This document shows, piece after piece, positions 21,422 to 59,068 of a stretch of DNA of 64,000 nt; positions within the stretch are counted from its first letter, which is position 1, and each line of letters begins with the position of its first letter. The translations under genes and the position numbers were made by a program. The notes under the pieces are model-generated. The model had not been told where the DNA came from and searched no databases. It saw only the letters and a program-made list of their open reading frames with translations. The stretch is from NCBI RefSeq assembly GCF_005871165.1, contig NZ_SWKP01000006.1, forward strand, positions 124,001 through 188,000. The letters run 5' to 3'. This stretch comes from Maricaulis alexandrii. GTDB lineage: Bacteria > Pseudomonadota > Alphaproteobacteria > Caulobacterales > Maricaulaceae.

Positions 21422-21497
21422 GCCCGGGTAGCTCAGTTGGTAGAGCAGCGGATTGAAAATCCGCGTGTCGGTGGTTCGAATCCGCCCCCGGGCACCA
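21422..21497 (+). tRNA. tRNA-Phe (GAA)
   Basis: 76 nt with encoded CCA. The acceptor stem GCCCGGG pairs with CCCGGGC; the D-loop is AGCTCAGTTGGTAGAGC; the anticodon stem-loop is GCGGATTGAAAATCCGC with anticodon GAA; the T-arm is GGTGGTTCGAATCCGCC. A TGGACA (21353-21358) and CTATAA (21375-21380) pair with a 16-bp spacer upstream is a plausible promoter. A 95-nt repeat also found after tRNA-Thr starts 8 bases after the CCA. Confidence 0.98.
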
Positions 21498-21504
21498 TTT
21501 TTGG

Positions 21505-21599
21505 TTATTCCCGCTCCGCTCGACCCGAGACTGGCACCAACCTTCTGTGCTGGGGTCGATGCTCACATGGAATGCGCTCAAGGCTGCTTGGCAATGAGC
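21505..21599 (+). repeat. tRNA-linked 95-nt structured repeat, copy 1
   Basis: Begins TTATTCCCGCTCCGCTCGAC and ends GGCAATGAGC, 7 bases after the CCA end of tRNA-Phe. A second copy of exactly the same length follows tRNA-Thr at 27298-27392; by eye 86 of 95 positions agree. The first half can fold (CGACCC with GGGTCG, inner GCAC/GTGC) and the second half has GCTCA pairing with TGAGC. Eight of the nine differences fall in the first half. It contains a 12-codon ORF (21559-21597) after a GGGG motif. Function unknown. Confidence 0.85.
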
Positions 21600-21743
21600 A
21601 TGTGGCGGAGGACTTTGATCTCACGGCAGTTTGCTTCGCTCACCGCTCCAATGAGGCGGCGCATCAGGCGCCGGCGCGCGGTCGCGTTTGCGGGCCGTTG
21701 GCCCCGGGGTGATGTGGCGTGTTCATGAAAGCGCTTCGCGCTG

Positions 21744-21904
21744 CCCCCTCATCCGGTCCTTCGGACCACCTTCTCCCGCGAGGGGAGAAGGAGGGCGTCA
21801 GAGCGAAGTGGACACTCCCTCTCCCCTTGCGGGCTGAAGAGCCCAAAGACAGTCCGGGGGACTGTCTGACGCGATGAAGGTGGCGCGCAGCGCCGGGTGA
21901 GGGG
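21744..21904. repeat. Nested palindromic intergenic element
   Basis: About 160 bases made of successive inverted repeats: GGTCCTTCGGACC, CTTCTCCC/GGGAGAAG, and AGACAGTCC/GGACTGTCT. All lie within an outer inverted pair, CCCCTCATCCGG at the left and CCGGGTGAGGGG at the right. The style is that of the mobile palindromic repeats dispersed between genes in many alphaproteobacterial genomes. Together with the tRNA-linked repeat it accounts for most of the 433-base gene-free stretch between tRNA-Phe and yacG; in 21600-21743 I see nothing else convincing. Confidence 0.65.
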
Positions 21905-21931
21905 TTGGCCGCGCAAGCGGCCCAGCAAGGC

Positions 21932-22099
21932 CTACTGATCTTCCTCGGACGGCGGATTGTCCTCCGCCACATCCGCGGGCTCTCCCGGGATCGCGTAGCT
22001 GTCATTCATCCACTTGCCCAGGTCGAGATCGGCGCAGCGTTTCGAGCAGAAGGGTTTGAAGTCGGGATGCGCCGGTTGGCGGCAGATCGGGCATTTCAT
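21932..22099 (-). CDS. yacG: YacG family zinc-binding protein (DNA gyrase inhibitor type)
   Basis: 55 residues, begun at the ATG at 22099 (an adjacent ATG at 22102 would add one Met). The zinc-binding cysteines are MKCPICRQPA and FKPFCSKRCADLDLGKWM, giving the C-x2-C...C-x3-C pattern of YacG, followed by the conserved W and the NDSYAIPGE segment. The tail is acidic. E. coli YacG binds GyrB and inhibits gyrase. It lies 23 bases downstream of the RNase E/G-type gene, the usual alphaproteobacterial order infA-maf-rng-yacG. It is short enough to be missed by a length-filtered gene search. Confidence 0.92.
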   Translation of the reverse strand: MKCPICRQPAHPDFKPFCSKRCADLDLGKWMNDSYAIPGEPADVAEDNPPSEEDQ

Positions 22100-22122
22100 C
22101 ATTCGGGTTTCCCCTTTTGGTC

Positions 22123-23196
22123 TCAGGCGCGGGCGACGCGTTCCTGGTCGCGGGCGAGATCGGTGTTCTCGCGCAGTTCGAAGCGCGGCCCGATCCGGTC
22201 GGTGAGTGCGGCTTTCCAGCCGATGCTGTCAGCGTCGAGCCAGGCGAAGACGTCCGGCCCGACCTCGAGCACCTGACGGCGACCACGGTCGGACAGGGCT
22301 TCCGCCTGCAGGCGGCGCAGGGCTTTCAACGCACAGGTTTCCACGGACAGGGCCCCCGTGTCATCCCGCAGGATTTCCGACAAGGCCCGGCCGCGGCGCT
22401 GGCGGGCCAGTTCCCCGACACAGAATTGCGAGAGCGGCGCGACATCGACCTTGGCCCGATCACGCTTGAAAGCACCGCGCATGGCCTGTTCCACGGCCTT
22501 GCGATCGGGCTGGCCGCGCATGTGGACGAAATCGATGGCGATGATGCCGCCCAGGCCGCGCAGGCGGACCTGACGCGCGGCTTCCTTGGCGGCGGAGACA
22601 TTGAGTTGGGAGGCCAGTTGGGCGGAATTGCCCTGCCCCTTGCGGCCATCGGCGTCGACATCAATGGTCGTCATGGCGCGCGTGGTCTCGATCCAGAGTG
22701 AACCACCGCCGGGAATGGGGGCACGCGGGTCGAGGGCCTCCTCGAACTCGGCTTCCAGATCGAAATTGGTCTCATCGGCCCAGACGGCTTCGGCATCGCC
22801 AAAGGCCTTCACCAGGCGCTGGGCCAGGATGGGCGCGGGCTCCAGGCATTCCGGGGCGTCGCCGTCCTCCACCTCGACCAGGGCGAGGTTGGGCCCTTTC
22901 TCGGCATAGGCTTCGCGCGTGACCCGGACGCCAAGGGCGGCGCCTTCATGCAGGCCGCGCGGGCGCCCGGACTTGCCGAAGGGCAGAAAGCCTTCCGGCC
23001 CGACACCGAGATCGACAAAGGCGGCATTGAGGGCCGGTTCGACGCGGCGCACGCGGCCGCGATAGATCTCGCCTTCAATGGCGCCCTGCCCGGCCTCGCT
23101 CCAGCGCTCCTGGTGCAGTTCCACGATGCGGCCATTCTCGACCACGGCGGCGCGGGTCTCGCCGATATTTTCCTCGATCAGGATCTGGCGGTTCAT
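22123..23196 (-). CDS. Ribonuclease E/G family protein (short form)
   Basis: 357 residues from the ATG at 23196; upstream in-frame codons overlap maf. RNase E/G endonucleases cut single-stranded AU-rich RNA. The S1-like region is represented by GEIYRGRVRRVEPALNAAFVDLG and GFLPFGK. The catalytic domain has QVRLRGLGGIIAIDFVHM, with the first metal-ligand Asp, and KVDVAPLSQF, with the second. The protein stops soon after; the CPxC Zn-link and small domain of E. coli RNase G (about 490 residues) are absent. It overlaps maf by 4 bases and precedes yacG. Confidence 0.88.
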   Translation of the reverse strand: MNRQILIEENIGETRAAVVENGRIVELHQERWSEAGQGAIEGEIYRGRVRRVEPALNAAFVDLGVGPEGFLPFGKSGRPRGLHEGAALGVRVTREAYAEKGPNLALVEVEDGDAPECLEPAPILAQRLVKAFGDAEAVWADETNFDLEAEFEEALDPRAPIPGGGSLWIETTRAMTTIDVDADGRKGQGNSAQLASQLNVSAAKEAARQVRLRGLGGIIAIDFVHMRGQPDRKAVEQAMRGAFKRDRAKVDVAPLSQFCVGELARQRRGRALSEILRDDTGALSVETCALKALRRLQAEALSDRGRRQVLEVGPDVFAWLDADSIGWKAALTDRIGPRFELRENTDLARDQERVARA

Positions 23197-23822
23197 GCGC
23201 CTGGCTCCTTCTGGGCGATGCAGGATGTCACCGGATAGCCCAGCCCGGCGAGAAGGTTGGCGGTTTCGTAGAGCGGCAGGCCGACCACACCGGTGAAAGA
23301 GCCGATCAGATTGACGATGAAACAGCCGGCCCGGCCCTGGATGGCATAACCGCCCGCCTTGCCGTGCCACTCGCCCGACGCGATATAGGCCTCGATCTCA
23401 TCCGTCGAGAGCGGCTTCATCTTCACCCGTGTCTCCACCACACGCGCCGCCATGCGCCCGTCGGGCGCGCGGGCGGCAATACCGGTGAAGACACGGTGAT
23501 TGCGGCCGGACATGAGTTTGAGACAGGCCCGGGCCTCATCCGCTTCCAGCGTCTTGGGCAGGATGCGGCGCCCCACGCCGACGACCGTGTCGGCCGCCAG
23601 AACGTAGGCGTCGTCACTGCCGGGATGCGCGGCACACTTTTCCTGCGCCAGGCGCAGGGCCAGCGGTCCGGGCAATTCACCGGGAATCTCGAACTCGTCG
23701 ATATGAGTGGGTTCAACCGCGTCCGGCGTCAGCCCGGCCCCGCGCAGCAAATCATGGCGGCGGGGCGAGGCAGAGGCCAGGATCAGGCGTGGACGCGGTT
23801 TGTCCGTTTCGGCAGACGTCAT
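23193..23822 (-). CDS. maf: Maf family nucleotide pyrophosphatase
   Basis: 209 residues. Maf proteins hydrolyse non-canonical or modified nucleoside triphosphates and are linked to septum control. The signature LILASASPRRHDLLRGAG is at the N-terminus; ADTVVGVGRRILPK and SGRNHRVFTG follow; KAGGYAIQGRAG carries further active-site residues, and IGSFTGVVGLPLYET is the typical C-terminal segment. Which Maf subgroup (dTTP/UTP or m7GTP type) cannot be decided safely. It is 19 bases after infA and overlaps the RNase gene by 4 bases. Confidence 0.94.
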   Translation of the reverse strand: MTSAETDKPRPRLILASASPRRHDLLRGAGLTPDAVEPTHIDEFEIPGELPGPLALRLAQEKCAAHPGSDDAYVLAADTVVGVGRRILPKTLEADEARACLKLMSGRNHRVFTGIAARAPDGRMAARVVETRVKMKPLSTDEIEAYIASGEWHGKAGGYAIQGRAGCFIVNLIGSFTGVVGLPLYETANLLAGLGYPVTSCIAQKEPGA

Positions 23823-23841
23823 CGCGCGTCCCGCACCGGGC

Positions 23842-24060
23842 TTACTTGAAGCGATAGGTGATCCGGCCCTTGGTCAGATCATAAGGCGTCATTTCGACAA
23901 GAACCTTGTCGCCGGCCAGTACGCGGATGCGGTTTTTGCGCATCTTGCCCGCCGTGTGGGCAATGATCTCATGGTCGTTCTCGAGCTTGACCCGGAAGGT
24001 CGCGTTGGGAAGAAGTTCAGTGACTTCGCCCGGGAACTCCAACAACTCTTCTTTCGCCAT
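23842..24060 (-). CDS. infA: Translation initiation factor IF-1
   Basis: 72 residues, exactly the IF-1 size. [20 protein letters not shown] at the start, then [21 protein letters not shown] and [16 protein letters not shown], form the single OB-fold (S1) domain that binds the ribosomal A site with IF-2 and IF-3. It heads infA-maf-RNase E/G-yacG. The 118 bases upstream separate it from the phosphatase gene and probably contain its promoter. Confidence 0.98.
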
Positions 24061-24178
24061 GCGGCTCCTCATTCGCCTTCTAAAGGCATGAAATTCATGG
24101 ATTGCAGCGCCGACTCGCCAGTCACCCGGCGGGCCAGAGCGCGCTATATAGTCCCTTGCATGGGGGAAAGTCGAGGCT

Positions 24179-24610
24179 TCAGGCGCTTTTTGCGCTGGCT
24201 TCCCACTGGGCGATGCGCGCCGCGATGGCATCGCGGGTCTCGCGATAGGCTGCAATGCGCATATCCCGATTGCCGCCGGTCTCGCTGGGATCAGGGATCG
24301 GCCAGGCCTGGAATTCGGCACCGGTGCGGGATGCATAGTCCCGCGCTGTCCGCTCGGCGGCGGTCGACAAGGAGACTACAAGCTGCGCGGCCGGCTCTCC
24401 GACACCATTGAGGGCGATGGGGGAAAAGTCCTCCAGGTCGATGCCTTTTTCCAGCATGACCGAGACCATGAAAGGGTCGACGAAAGCGGCCGGGATCACG
24501 CCGCAGGAGCGCGCTGAACCGGCCCCGAAGCGCTGGTCCCAGAGCGCGGCACCCATGGGCGAACGGATGGCATTGCGCCCGCAGACGAAAAGGACGGAGG
24601 GATGGCTCAT
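24179..24610 (-). CDS. Low-molecular-weight protein tyrosine phosphatase family protein
   Basis: 143 residues. The N-terminal P-loop [11 protein letters not shown] gives CX5RS with Cys10 and Arg16, the catalytic signature of LMW phosphatases and arsenate reductases. IPDPSE near residue 107 supplies the general-acid Asp. Residues of the type seen in true arsenate reductase (extra catalytic cysteines) are not obvious, so a phosphatase role is more likely. Its start overlaps the end of the UPF0262 gene by 4 bases; the two are commonly adjacent in alphaproteobacteria. Confidence 0.88.
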
Positions 24611-25089
24611 GCGGCCGCCCGCCGGTGAAGGGCGCAGATCAGGGTGAAGAGACGCCGTGCGGTATCAAAGTCGACCTCGATCTTGCCCTGCAGGCGCTCG
24701 CGCAGAAGCGTGGAGCCCTCATTATGGACTCCGCGGCGCCCCATATCGATGGCCTCGATCTGGGCCAGCGGCGCATCGCGGACGGCTTCGTAATAGCTTT
24801 CGCAGATCAGAAAATAATCCTTGATGATCCGGCGCAGCGGGCCGAGCGCGAACACGAAGGCCCGCACGGGTGTGTCGTCCTCCAGGCGGACGTCGAAGAC
24901 CAGGCGGTCATCCTCGATCGCCAGGCGCAAGGCGAAGGGGCCCTCGGCATCCCCGGACGGGCGGAACTGGTTGGACTCCAGCAGGTCGGCAATGGCCACG
25001 CGCCGCTCATGGTCGGCGTTCACATCGCCCGGCCCCATGCTGGCGGCATCAAGATCGATCCTGACGATCCGGTCCGGCGCTTCACTCAT
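24607..25089 (-). CDS. UPF0262 family protein
   Basis: 160 residues from the ATG at 25089 (MSEAPDRIVRIDLD). The central FDVRLEDDTPVRAFVFALGP and RIIKDYFLICESYYEAV, with the later GRRGVHNEGS, are the recognisable UPF0262 landmarks. The family is restricted mainly to alphaproteobacteria and has no defined function. It overlaps the DUF2948 gene by 8 bases and the phosphatase by 4 bases, so murA, DUF2948, UPF0262 and the phosphatase probably form one transcript. Confidence 0.9.
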   Translation of the reverse strand: MSEAPDRIVRIDLDAASMGPGDVNADHERRVAIADLLESNQFRPSGDAEGPFALRLAIEDDRLVFDVRLEDDTPVRAFVFALGPLRRIIKDYFLICESYYEAVRDAPLAQIEAIDMGRRGVHNEGSTLLRERLQGKIEVDFDTARRLFTLICALHRRAAA

Positions 25090-25531
25090 TGCTGCTCGCC
25101 TCGTCTGCATGCTCGGGCCGGCCGGACGCCCGCCAGCTTCCGCTGAGGTCGGCCATCACCACATCCAGGCATTCCACATCAAGCTGGAGCTCTCCGCCAC
25201 CGGAAAATACCAGCACGACCTGTCCGGCCGGTTCCTCGGCAGGGTCGAAGCGGATGGTCAGCAGATTGACGACGGCATCCTCCGCCCCCTGGCGGATATT
25301 GCGGCTGCGCGCGGCCAGGACACCGCCCAGCTGCAATCCGGCGCGGACCCGGCGATTGCGGCGCCCGGCCTCCCACTGGAAGCGGTTGAAGGCGATGGTG
25401 AAGCGCTTGTTGCGGCGGTCGAACTCGAAATCACCCAACAGGGCCACAGCATCCTGCAGGGCAGCCGAAATCGGCTCCAGGTCCTGCTGGTCAAAAGCGA
25501 CGAGGCGAAGGGGGATCGGATCTCGGCTCAC
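25082..25531 (-). CDS. DUF2948 family protein
   Basis: 149 residues. LRLVAFDQQDLEPISAALQDA at the start, RFTIAFNRFQWE in the middle and FSGGGELQLDVECLDVVMADL near the end match DUF2948, an alphaproteobacterial family of unknown function usually next to murA. No signal peptide or membrane segment. It lies 27 bases downstream of murA and overlaps the UPF0262 gene. Confidence 0.9.
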   Translation of the reverse strand: MSRDPIPLRLVAFDQQDLEPISAALQDAVALLGDFEFDRRNKRFTIAFNRFQWEAGRRNRRVRAGLQLGGVLAARSRNIRQGAEDAVVNLLTIRFDPAEEPAGQVVLVFSGGGELQLDVECLDVVMADLSGSWRASGRPEHADEASSNE

Positions 25532-25558
25532 GCTCTAAAGGCTCCTGCTGTGTCGTGA

Positions 25559-26824
25559 CTATTCAGCCTGGCGCTCGATGCGGGCTCCGCAGCCGGTCAG
25601 CTTGGCTTCCAAGCGTTCGAAACCACGATCGAGATGGTAGACCCGGTTGACCACGGTTTCACCTTCCGCGGCAAGTCCCGCAATGACCAGACTGACGGAG
25701 GCGCGCAGATCGGTCGCCATGACCGGCGCCCCTTTGAGGGTTTTCACGCCGCGCACCACGGCCTCATTTCCGTGCACGGTAATGTCGGCACCCAGGCGGG
25801 CCAGTTCCGGCGCGTGCATGAAGCGGTTCTCGAAAATCGTCTCGCGGATCACGGACGTGCCCGAGGCCAGCGTCATCAGCGCCATGAATTGGGCCTGCGC
25901 ATCGGTCGGGAAGCCCGGATAGGGCTGGGTCTCGATATCGACACTGTCCAGACCGCTGCCATTGCGGGCAATGCGGACGCCGTTCTCGACTGCTTCGACC
26001 GTGACCCCGGCCTTGGTCATGGCCGACCAGAGCGCCTTGTTGTGGGCATGGACGGCGCCGTCCAGCACGGCGTCCCCGCCGGCAGCGGCCACGGCCAGCG
26101 CATAGGTGGCGGTCTCGATCCGGTCACCCACAACGCGGTGGGTGATGCCCTTGAGCTTTTCGCGCCCCTGAATGCGGATCGTGCTGGTGCCGGCGCCGTC
26201 CACGACGGCGCCCATGGCGGTCAGACAATCGGCCAGATCGCCGATCTCCGGTTCGCGGGCCGCATTCTCGATCACGCTTTCCCCGCGGGCGAGCGCTGCG
26301 GCGAGCATGGCGTGCTCGGTCGCCCCGACAGAGGCGAAGGGCAGATCGATCTCGGCACCGACCAGACCGCCCTTGGGCGCGGTCGCCTCGACATAGCCTT
26401 CCGACAGTTCGATTGTCGCCCCCAGCGCCTCGAGCGCCTTGAGATGCAGATCGACCGGACGCGCCCCGATGGCGCATCCGCCCGGCAGGGAGACCTTGGC
26501 CTTGCCTTCGCGCGCGATCAGCGGACCGAGTACGTTGAAGGTCGCGCGCATTTTCCGCACCAGATCATAGGATGCGTAGGTATCGGAGAATTCGGCGGCG
26601 TGAAGATTGAGCTGCGCGTTCGGCGCTTCCTCGACCGTGACGCCGAGACTGGCCAGCAAATGCCCCATGAACCGCGAATCGGCGAGGCGCGGCATATTGG
26701 TCAGCGTCATCGGCTCGTCGGTGAGCAAGGCTGCCGCCATGAGTTTCAGAGCCGAATTCTTGGCGCCGCTGATCGGAATACGGCCTTCCAGCCGCGTGCC
26801 GCCCTGGATGACGATACGGTCCAT
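25559..26824 (-). CDS. murA: UDP-N-acetylglucosamine 1-carboxyvinyltransferase
   Basis: 421 residues from the ATG at 26824, preceded by GGGAG; the GTG two codons upstream is too close to that site. MurA transfers enolpyruvyl from PEP to UDP-GlcNAc, the first committed step of peptidoglycan synthesis. Features: [20 protein letters not shown] at the start with the catalytic Lys, [15 protein letters not shown], and the active-site Cys117 in [17 protein letters not shown], the fosfomycin target (Cys115 in E. coli), so not the Asp-type resistant form. First gene of the murA-DUF2948-UPF0262-phosphatase cluster. Confidence 0.97.
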
Positions 26825-26887
26825 GCTCACTCCCTTACCGATTGCCTGTCCGGATGCCCGACATCCAGAGGGTGGAAACCGGCGGCA

Positions 26888-27109
26888 TTATGACGATTTC
26901 GCGGGTTTTTCTGAGGCGCTTTGTGCAGGCGCACTGTCATTGCCTGCCTCATCAGCCGTCCCCGACGCAGCCGGCTTCTTCGCCGCAGCCTTGCGCCGGC
27001 GCAGATTGGCGCGCAGGGCCTCGGCCAGGCGTTCTTCCTTGGAACCGGCTTCAGGCTTGGCGGCCCGCTTGCGCGCCGCCGGCCCGGATGTGTTTTCTGC
27101 ATCACTCAT
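26888..27109 (-). CDS. Small basic hypothetical protein
   Basis: 73 residues, rich in Ala, Lys, Arg and Glu. The core KEERLAEALRANLRRRKA is a short basic amphipathic helix of a kind seen in many small alphaproteobacterial proteins. The rest is low complexity and probably disordered. It lies 63 bases upstream of murA on the same strand. I cannot give a function. Confidence 0.65.
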   Translation of the reverse strand: MSDAENTSGPAARKRAAKPEAGSKEERLAEALRANLRRRKAAAKKPAASGTADEAGNDSAPAQSASEKPAKSS

Positions 27110-27152
27110 GCAATTGGTCCTGCCGAACGCTGCACATCACGTCAAGACACTC

Positions 27153-27180
27153 TTGGCGTGGCGGGCCCGGTGCGTTATAT
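27153..27180 (+). promoter_or_regulatory. Candidate sigma-70 promoter for tRNA-Thr
   Basis: TTGGCG (27153-27158) and TTATAT (27175-27180) with a 16-bp spacer, 33 bases before the mature 5' end of tRNA-Thr. Confidence 0.5.
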
Positions 27181-27213
27181 GCCCGGCTCTCGTTGCCGAC
27201 AGGCACCCGGTGC

Positions 27214-27288
27214 GCCGCTATAGCTCAGGGGTAGAGCGTTCCCTTGGTAAGGGAGAGGTCGAGTGTTCAATTCACTCTAGCGGCACCA
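27214..27288 (+). tRNA. tRNA-Thr (GGT)
   Basis: 75 nt with encoded CCA. The acceptor stem GCCGCTA pairs with TAGCGGC; the D-arm is AGCTCAGGGGTAGAGC; the anticodon arm TCCCTTGGTAAGGGA has anticodon GGT; the T-arm is GAGTGTTCAATTCACTC. It is followed after 9 bases by the second copy of the 95-nt repeat. Confidence 0.97.
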
Positions 27289-27297
27289 TTTTCCTGA

Positions 27298-27392
27298 TTA
27301 TTCCCGTTCCGCTCGACCCGAGCCTGTCACCGACCAACGGTGTTGGGGTCGATGCTCACATGGAATGCGCTCAAGGCTGCTGGGCAATGAGC
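27298..27392 (+). repeat. tRNA-linked 95-nt structured repeat, copy 2
   Basis: Begins TTATTCCCGTTCCGCTCGAC and ends GGCAATGAGC, 9 bases after the CCA of tRNA-Thr. Same length, orientation and spacing as copy 1 after tRNA-Phe. In the last 53 bases only one base differs. The inner stem is kept by shifted pairing (CACC/GGTG here, GCAC/GTGC in copy 1). The embedded 12-codon ORF is at 27352-27390 and differs by one residue. Confidence 0.85.
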
Positions 27393-57769: not shown

Positions 57770-59068
57770 ATGCTGTACCAATCTACGCGGGGCCAGGCGC
57801 CCAAGGTGACCGCCGACGCAGCGCTGAAGGCCGGCGCCGCGCCCGATGGCGGCCTCTACCTGCCCGAAGCCCTGCCTGGGCTAAATCTCGCAGCGCTTGA
57901 GGCCACGACAGGCCTGGGCGATCTGGGCTGCATCATGCTGGCTCCCTTCTTTGCGGACTCCCCGCTGGACGGGCAGGCCCCGGCGATCTGCGCCGATGCG
58001 TTCAACTTCCCCGCCCCGCTGGTGCAGCCGGATCCGGATCAACACGACCTGCAAGTGCTGGAGCTGTTTCACGGCCCGACCGGCGCTTTCAAGGATTTCG
58101 GCGCGCGCTTCCTGTTCCGCTGTTTCTCGGCCCTGGGCCAGGGTGCGGAAACGCCCATCACGGTCCTGGTCGCGACCTCCGGCGATACCGGCGGGGCCGT
58201 CGGTTGTGCCGCGGAAGGCCTGCCGGGCACCCGCGCGGTCATCCTGTTTCCCAAGAGCCGGATCTCCGCTTTCCAGGAGCATCAATTGTGCTGCTGGGAA
58301 CCGCCGGTGGAAGCCCTGCGCGTGGAAGGTGATTTCGATACCTGCCAAGCCCTGGTGAAGGCCGCTTTCGCGGACAAGGCCCTGAGCGCGGAGCATGCCC
58401 TCACCTCGGCCAATTCCATCAGCATCGGCCGGCTCCTGCCGCAAATGGTCTACTGGGCCCGCGCCGCACTGGATGTGTACGCCCGGACCGGCAAAAAGCC
58501 GGGCCTGGTGATCCCCACCGGCAATCTGGGCAATGCGCTGGCCGCGCTGATGGCGCGGGAGCTGGGCCTGCCGATCGGACCGGTCGTGCTGGCGACCAAT
58601 GCCAATGCCACGCTGGCGGACTGGCACGCCTCCGGCCAGTATGAGGCCCGCCCCTCCATCGCCACGATCGCCAATGCCATGGACGTCGGCGCGCCGAGCA
58701 ATTTTGAACGGTTGGCCGGTCTGGCCGAGGCCCGTATCGATGGCGTGGAGCGGGTGACGGATGAGGCGATCCGCGCCCGGATGAAGCAGGTTTTCGAGAC
58801 GACCGGCTATGTCGCCTGCCCGCACACCGCCACGGCCCTGGAAGCCCATGCCCGTATTCCGGCAGACCAGAAAGCCGAACGCCCCTGGGTGCTCGGTGCC
58901 ACCGCCCATCCGGCCAAGTTCGCCGATGTGGTGGAACCGGTCATCGGCCGGACGGTCGATCTGCCGCCAGCCCTCGCCGACGTTCTGGAGCGGCCGGTGC
59001 GCGTCCGGGATATTCCCGGCTCATCGGACGCGCTGGCCCGGGCTCTGGAGAGCGGTGTTCCGGCCTGA
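57770..59068 (+). CDS. thrC: Threonine synthase
   Basis: 432 residues. ThrC, PLP-dependent, converts O-phosphohomoserine to threonine. Opening MLYQSTRGQAPKVTADAALK, FHGPTGAFKDFGARF with the PLP-binding Lys, TSGDTGGAVG for phosphate binding, ANSISIGRLLPQMVYWARA and IPTGNLGNALAALMARELGLP are all characteristic of the class I (E. coli-like) enzymes. Last gene of thrABC; the next gene is on the opposite strand and starts 2 bases after its stop, with no clear terminator between. Confidence 0.96.
   Translation: MLYQSTRGQAPKVTADAALKAGAAPDGGLYLPEALPGLNLAALEATTGLGDLGCIMLAPFFADSPLDGQAPAICADAFNFPAPLVQPDPDQHDLQVLELFHGPTGAFKDFGARFLFRCFSALGQGAETPITVLVATSGDTGGAVGCAAEGLPGTRAVILFPKSRISAFQEHQLCCWEPPVEALRVEGDFDTCQALVKAAFADKALSAEHALTSANSISIGRLLPQMVYWARAALDVYARTGKKPGLVIPTGNLGNALAALMARELGLPIGPVVLATNANATLADWHASGQYEARPSIATIANAMDVGAPSNFERLAGLAEARIDGVERVTDEAIRARMKQVFETTGYVACPHTATALEAHARIPADQKAERPWVLGATAHPAKFADVVEPVIGRTVDLPPALADVLERPVRVRDIPGSSDALARALESGVPA

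Follow-up and report, generated by a model that had tools for sequence, protein, structure and literature searches.

Our analysis of a 64,000-nucleotide stretch of the Maricaulis alexandrii genome (hereafter the window, G000:C6:124001-188000, with G000 denoting the genome of the window) uncovered two mutually unrelated short repeats in the 3′ trailers of tRNA genes, labeled here R1 (a 95-nt repeat) and R2, and we lean slightly towards regarding both as mobile structured cassettes that spread between such trailers. The direct observations bearing on this are the position and strand of the units, the covarying structure of R1, arrays of one to four units, whole-unit differences between related genomes and one array common to two tRNAs. 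Under this proposal R1, and independently R2, would be a small non-coding cassette of ~80–125 bp with a conserved fold, placed in the sense orientation in the tRNA 3′ trailer, 8–12 nt (R1) or mostly 3–7 nt (R2) past the CCA. The cassettes would spread by insertion or recombination at the 3′ boundary of a tRNA gene, and less often at other 3′ ends, with the tRNA 3′ end and its T-tract as the likely docking or recombination sequence; such events would account for the tRNA-3′-end-like repeats between the units of some arrays. Once in place, the cassettes would be transcribed together with the tRNA and form its structured trailer.

A preliminary description of the window had noticed two 95-nt R1 copies on the same strand, 7 and 9 nt past the CCA of tRNA-Phe and tRNA-Thr and identical, by eye, at about 86 of 95 positions; these points are borne out (86/95 positions are equal, and BLAST gives 91%), whereas its count of one difference in the last 53 nt has to be corrected to two (positions 46 and 85). 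The genome-wide search it had proposed, carried out with BLAST and a listing of preceding features, recovers six R1 matches in G000 at E ≤ 5e-4, all six on the same strand behind tRNAs: Phe-GAA, Thr-GGU, Thr-CGU, Arg-UCU, Arg-CCG and Leu-GAG, the last with a partial copy that follows R2 (a seventh match, with E 3.35, is noise). R2 has nine matches at E ≤ 0.001, seven of which lie behind intact tRNAs (Phe, Leu-CAA, Thr-UGU, Leu-GAG, Arg-CCU twice and Ala-CGC), and the other two at L042, behind an apparent tRNA-Leu 3′ half, and at L043, with no tRNA. Units that start at +6 to +18 of the CCA are borne by 10 of the 41 tRNAs called in the G000 loci, by 5 of the 25 examined in G015 (41 tRNA matches in the genome) and by 2 of the 21 examined in G005 (37 in the genome). 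No opposite-strand R1 or R2 was seen up to 1300 nt downstream of the 87 tRNAs surveyed in these three genomes, as far as the stretches reach. Thus, neither a majority of matches without a tRNA nor a loss of the predicted pairs across copies, either of which the preliminary description had named as telling against a tRNA-linked RNA, was found within the genus.

The comparison of tRNA loci in related genomes, which it had likewise suggested, reveals that orthologous loci differ by whole units beside the CCA or by a swap of R1 and R2. At Thr-UGU, G000 has R2 alone and G001 has R1 followed by R2, with the R1 unit seated between CCAGTTTT (the CCA and T-tract) and TTGATCTCACG, which is common with G000. 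The Thr-GGU locus displays R1 in G000 and R2, R1 and a partial R2 in G001 (an extra R2 in the latter), and Arg-ACG features R1 and a partial R2 in G018 as against R2, R1 and R2 in G015 (an extra R2 with its tail in the latter). At Arg-UCU, R1 in G000 is replaced by R2 in G001, with both flanks alignable. Behind tRNA-Phe, R1 and R2 of G000 correspond in G001 to a plain terminator-like GC hairpin with a T-run; given that the R1 at Phe is common to G000 and G013, a loss in G001 is possible. These whole-unit differences may reflect either gain or loss.

Copying between trailers within a genome can also be discerned for R1 among the tRNA-anchored units; nearest relatives of these units (41 R1 and 48 R2) were scored against 300 label shuffles. 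The nearest relative of R1 lies in the same genome behind another tRNA in 10.5 of 41 cases (null 2.3, highest 10.0). Moreover, in G014 an R2-R1-R1 array is nearly identical behind Arg-CCG and Arg-ACG, and this similarity begins in the common acceptor end of the two tRNAs and stops after the third unit. This array could have arisen by homologous recombination between tRNA 3′ ends; however, the ends of the Phe, Thr, Arg, Leu and Lys tRNAs differ, and hence such recombination would not easily underlie the spread among them, for which a recombinase as yet unrecognized is possible.

The R1 fold, established from 34 MAFFT-aligned copies, comprises P1 (RUUCC/GGAAY), which pairs two parts within the R1 core, P2 (CGACCC/GGGUCG), P3 and a short 3′ hairpin. 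Among these copies 94.3% of the paired cells pair as against 91.4% in shuffles, 25 cells are changed on both sides as against 6.7, and the covariation score is 0.225 as against 0.169, none of which is reached by any of 500 shuffles; the remaining two of five measures are not beyond the shuffles (6 double-change pairs vs 4.1, reached in 57/500; 20 further pair types vs 19.3, reached in 217/500), and slid controls give 27–50% pairing. When relatives are included (80 distinct rows) all five measures exceed all 500 shuffles (pairing 94.3% vs 85.9%, 120 double-changed cells vs 29.2 and 15 double-change pairs vs 8.0), though this alignment was made to a model from the 34-copy alignment and favors the structure, the 34-copy set being the independent count. 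P1 takes the forms GTTCC/GGAAC, GTCTC/GAGAC, GTTTC/GAAAC, GATCC/GGATC, GCTTC/GAAGC, ATTCC/GGAAT, GGTTC/GAACC and more, and the CTC.CATG and GCTCA.GGCTG segments of R1 are at least 90% conserved in each column. Single-sequence folding of the window copies is modestly better than that of shuffles (z −1.4 and −2.3), so the case for the structure rests on the covariation.

The covariance model that the preliminary description had called for could thus be built, and its predicted pairs are kept across copies with compensatory changes. Of the stems proposed there, CGACCC/GGGTCG exists but is not the outermost, as AUUCC/GGAAU (P1), which has the strongest covariation, encloses it; GCTCA/TGAGC is perfect in both window copies but often imperfect across 61 R1 units, the best 5-mer pairing being 5/5 in 13, 4/5 in 39 and 3/5 in 3 with the motif missing in 6, a count that was made without a control and is weak evidence. 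R2 too looks structured in its alignment: among 65 aligned copies 97% of the predicted cells pair and 40 are double-changed, with the structure taken from the same alignment and no shuffle control, and 38 of these 40 fall at two pairs of one hairpin (GGCC/GGCC vs GGGC/GCCC). The R2 stretch of the window by itself folds no better than its shuffles (z +1.3). Rfam 15 at gathering score recovers only tRNA in the whole window and in the loci of eight relatives, and R1 is set aside as a known Rfam family, its best sub-threshold match, which lies on the other strand, scoring 16.8 bits where 115 would be required. Integron attC sites feature AAC/GTT core boxes; R1 was also rejected as an attC, with P1 of opposite polarity and freely varying (GTCTC/GAGAC, GATCC/GGATC, GCTTC/GAAGC).

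Within the genus, R1 is found in 16 of 19 genomes by BLAST and in 18 of 19 by the covariance model, and R2 in 15 of 19 by BLAST; in G003 neither R1 (by BLAST or the covariance model) nor R2 (by BLAST) was found. A DNA pattern made from the repeat has 12 matching stretches in named genomes, all labeled Maricaulis. Further afield, where searches over more than 40 genomes used stricter Infernal filters that lose weak matches, the R1 model has matches in 25 of 137 genomes and 4 of 19 genera of the family and in 51 of 398 sampled genomes and 8 of 59 genera of the order. A second R1 model finds 4 of 385 genomes in the class, including that of the window, two of the four matches lying beyond the order, in G506 (30.5 bits) and in G542 (45.7 bits; the contamination of this genome is 10%). 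In 14 of 20 R1-bearing loci of the family genera g7, g8 and g10 a same-strand tRNA lies within 400 nt upstream; one of the other six follows a tRNA-like remnant and five have none (one of them at a contig edge). In family f2 the element is shorter, mostly 43–55 nt, retains P1 with a reduced P2 and is often tandem at ~45–65 bp. A same-strand tRNA is found within 200 nt upstream in 8 of the 20 f2 regions fetched, which were chosen from high-scoring matches and thus do not give a random estimate; in one of the eight, L297, the opposite strand carries a further array of four units, which does not follow the tRNA. We also observed a third, palindromic element that precedes R1 and starts almost at the CCA in L303, L311, L312, L314 and L316 (f2) and L257, L261 and L279 (g8), an example being CCATTCATTTC ... 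GAAATGAATG, which encloses a hairpin of the kind ATCGATCC/GGATCGAT.

The compensatory changes, together with position and strand, argue that the folded form matters, either as a trailer RNA or as folded DNA during movement, both roles being compatible with the sequences. A different reading is that R1 and R2 are functional 3′-trailer RNAs in the first place, with hairpins that serve to process, protect or terminate the tRNA at its 3′ end or that become small RNAs, and with copies that move only by recombination between similar tRNA 3′ ends. The strong covariation of P1 and the highly conserved columns outside it speak for this, as do the single strand throughout and the several tRNA-less f2 copies that start shortly after a same-strand open frame (such frames were sought in 12 f2 regions without a control, and several of these copies are overlapped by long frames on the opposite strand). 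It is also favored by the presence of a simple terminator-like hairpin within 250 nt past the CCA at only 6 of the 41 G000 tRNAs, which implies that most tRNA genes there may end transcription otherwise. However, only 10 of these 41 tRNAs carry R1 or R2 and orthologous tRNAs do without them, so the units are dispensable at any one tRNA; G003 was found to have neither repeat; and no terminator-like site was found at the window R1 copies, on which ground R1 was rejected as an intrinsic terminator. We rate a functional trailer RNA as a serious but rather unlikely explanation. Two R-bearing tRNAs of G000, Arg-CCU and Leu-CAA, do have a terminator-like hairpin; it lies at +80 to +82 and belongs to R2, whose terminal hairpin it is.

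The features of the window are collected in Table 1, with tRNAs called by ARAGORN and Rfam RF00005. Distal to R2, at 21742–21791, lies a hairpin-like CTCATCCGGTCC...GGACCACCTTCTCCC...GGGGAGAAGG, and stretches of a similar kind, CCTCCCCCTCC...GGGGGAGG, come after R2 in other genomes. A tRNA-Ile called by ARAGORN at 58519–58605 is unsupported by RF00005 at gathering score and is likely a false call.

Table 1. Repeats and their host tRNAs in the window (window positions)
Feature	Position	Strand	Basis or remark
tRNA-Phe (GAA), host of the first array	21422-21497	+	ARAGORN; RF00005 71.8 bits
R1 copy A	21505-21599	+	BLAST; covariance-model core 21506-21586, 92.8 bits
R1 copy A stems	P1 21507-21511/21569-21573; P2 21521-21526/21553-21558	+	
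R2, unrelated to R1, distal to R1 copy A	21615-21704	+	ends in hairpin GGGCC-GTT-GGCCC
tRNA-Thr (GGU), host of the second R1 copy	27214-27288	+	ARAGORN; RF00005 69.2 bits
R1 copy B	27298-27392	+	BLAST; covariance-model core 27299-27379, 95.7 bits
R1 copy B stems	P1 27300-27304/27362-27366; P2 27314-27319/27346-27351	+	

Across the loci gathered for the array survey, which are nearly all from Maricaulis (L023, L025 and L026 come from other genera), 160 R1/R2 occurrences collapse to 87 distinct arrays, deduplicated by the sequence around the first unit, with the proviso that a few contig-edge copies may repeat loci counted elsewhere. As some arrays were fetched for lying at tRNAs, the plain G000 match list given above is the cleanest count of linkage. 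On the same strand as the tRNA, 62 of the 87 begin within 20 nt past its CCA: 28 are R1-first, 8–12 nt after the CCA, and 34 are R2-first, at 3–7 nt in 31. The rest lie at 21–400 nt (2), after a tRNA-3′-end-like motif (7, a remnant class set by that motif, in which L058 and L068 may instead be R2 tails), at a contig edge (4) or show none of these (12). Arrays have one to four units, often ~120 bp apart, some of them separated by a tRNA-3′-end-like stretch such as AAGGTGCGCCATTTTTC, and all units within the dissected arrays have one orientation, the arrays having been assembled per strand. At L085 (Arg-ACG of G010) a unit starts R2-like and continues as R1, an apparent chimera at a common CGCTCCGCTCG stretch, and L107, L108 and L136 display R2 pairs ~86 bp apart with no tRNA, after the apparent end of a protein gene.

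Some arrays are found behind tRNA 3′ halves (L032, L042 and L113) or with no tRNA called nearby (L126/L133, with the 20-kb upstream stretches L228/L229, from G010/G018), and L032, L042, L113 and L126/L133 are arranged as though the integration of genomic islands had separated tRNA and array. One could ask if the repeats themselves mark the attachment sites of ordinary tRNA-integrating islands with tyrosine integrases, or are scars left by them, for which tRNA genes are classic integration sites in the cited part of the Islander account (PMC4383910); arrays behind tRNA 3′ halves are also what is expected if islands insert between tRNA and array. Yet one and the same repeat, which does not itself consist of tRNA sequence, follows unrelated tRNAs, what changes is a geneless unit of ~90–125 bp, and the fold is conserved across genera, making this origin very improbable.

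Certain loci display a duplicated tRNA end. At L014 (Arg-ACG, G002), ATCCTCCCCGGTGCGCCA is found on both sides of R1 as an exact duplicate of the tRNA end, the copy distal to R1 agreeing over 26 nt with the empty site L213 (G005); at L010 (Thr-UGU, G013), TCCCTCAGCCGGCACCATTT is repeated exactly; and at L061 (Arg-UCU, G014), the end of its own tRNA is repeated with two differences and equals the end of Arg-UCU in G000. Scoring of tails of at least 25 nt in tRNA-anchored arrays (40 R1 and 40 R2) yields mean scores that exceed those with permuted hosts (p = 0.008 and 0.012). Host-end duplication is real at a few loci and a minor trend overall, and it was rejected from the tail scoring as a general rule, being kept for L010, L014 and, as a near-exact case, L061. 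These duplicates are reminiscent of a casposon- or CRISPR-like, Cas1-type insertion at the tRNA 3′ end with target duplication, the more so as a casposase preferring a tRNA 3′ end is known, according to the cited part of PMC6614799. Against this, Cas1 (PF01867) is encoded in 1 of 19 genus genomes, namely G003, where no R1 or R2 was found, and the duplicates are exceptional; we consider such an origin next to negligible. More speculatively, and improbably in our estimate, tRNA 3′ ends could serve as leaders of growing arrays, with some bacterial system adding cassettes beside the CCA and leaving a duplicate of the tRNA end as a repeat between units, such that the newest unit would be nearest the tRNA. 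Such arrays would grow in a CRISPR- or casposon-like manner but with no Cas1, or else represent a SINE-like (short interspersed element) entity whose RNA has a tRNA-like 3′ end.

Several results weigh against mobile cassettes. Part of the distribution reflects inheritance in place: among the 41 R1 units, 8.5 have their nearest relative at the same tRNA in another genome (null 4.3, highest 13.0), as do 13.5 of the 48 R2 units (null 3.7, highest 13.3). A further 9.5 R2 units have it behind another tRNA of their own genome, a figure inside the null range (3.9, highest 14.2). Taken together, the nearest-relative counts show spread within genomes for R1 and, for R2, inheritance in place. Lys-CUU offers the one occupied/empty pair with two alignable flanks, the occupied locus in G010 (R1) and the empty one in G015; the spacer lengths are similar, so no simple insertion is evident at that pair. 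In the tail scoring, the own host tRNA is the best match in only 5/40 R1 and 1/40 R2, its median rank is 21.5 of ~39, and CCA[TC]TT is present in only 18/61 R1 and 9/71 R2 tails. Viral contigs have no matches to the two exact patterns searched, and the short weak matches in 2 plasmid and 16 phage records cover in no case more than 80% of the query. On the enzymatic side, to the single Cas1-bearing genome can be added that Y1_Tnp (PF01797), encoded in 5 of the 19 genus genomes, is out of step with R1 across them: G000 itself has two, G015, G018 and G013 have 4, 7 and 10 R1 with no Y1_Tnp, and G003 has two Y1_Tnp with no R1. Neither Y1/RAYT nor Cas1 tracks the repeats in the 19 genomes, and both are unsupported as drivers. 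The same pattern bears on the already disfavored idea that R1 and R2 are REP/REPIN-type elements (repetitive extragenic palindromic sequences and their doublets) moved by a Y1/RAYT transposase that recognizes hairpins in single-stranded DNA: the short hairpin, the many dispersed copies and the tandem arrays recall them, but the units are co-oriented with no inverted doublets, and together with the distribution of Y1_Tnp this renders the idea very unlikely.

The preliminary description had offered three possibilities, and its reading as a whole is partly supported. A tRNA-tail small RNA would fit the position, strand and covarying structure of the units. A mobile element at tRNA 3′ ends, which remains the reading we slightly favor, has on its side the whole-unit differences, the unrelated host tRNAs, the common tRNA-Arg array and the few end duplicates, and has against it the missing duplicates at most loci, a Lys-CUU pair unlike simple insertion and no identified enzyme. 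A recombination footprint is plausible for the array common to the two tRNA-Arg genes. R2, the arrays and the spread beyond the genus are additions to that description. Our findings bring to light a strongly covarying structure, without an Rfam match in the sequences searched, in the tRNA 3′ trailers of one alphaproteobacterial order, and two unrelated repeats that occupy one niche behind tRNAs; among the matches listed, the open-licence literature has no description of repeats that follow tRNAs in Maricaulis or related bacteria, a result that leaves room for accounts elsewhere in print. Should the units move, tRNA 3′ ends would be landing sites for ~100-bp elements, far below the size of the known tRNA islands; should they act at the RNA level, a family of structured trailer RNAs would be supplied by tRNA transcription.

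Known tRNA-integrating islands are kilobases long. Like them, R1 and R2 use tRNA genes and leave the proximal tRNA intact; unlike these integrase-carrying islands, as portrayed in the cited part of the Islander account, they are geneless ~100-bp units, and a size of ~90–125 bp leaves no room for an integrase gene. With casposons they share the tRNA 3′-end target, and a few loci here carry a duplicated end; casposons, in the part of PMC6614799 cited, have genes and terminal inverted repeats, whereas R1 and R2 have no accompanying Cas1. The 3′ETS (3′ external transcribed spacer) of Escherichia coli leuZ, in the cited part of PMC8166272, is a trailer of a tRNA transcript that is released by processing; R1 and R2 resemble it in lying on the sense strand in the tRNA 3′ trailer (62/87 arrays within 20 nt of the CCA), and release by processing could apply to them, but the leuZ 3′ETS is a single locus and R1 is one structured family behind many tRNAs. 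REP/REPIN elements, as the cited part of PMC3116915 has them, are short, non-coding, hairpin-forming, dispersed and sometimes tandem, with a RAYT/Y1 transposase and inverted-repeat doublets. R1 and R2 share the former attributes and are likewise geneless, but they are clustered behind tRNAs in Maricaulis as co-oriented units with no tracking Y1 transposase, and so lack two features that define REP/REPIN elements in that account, the cognate transposase and the inverted doublets. Hence, we file R1 and R2 as dispersed structured repeats that stand outside every named family with which they were compared.

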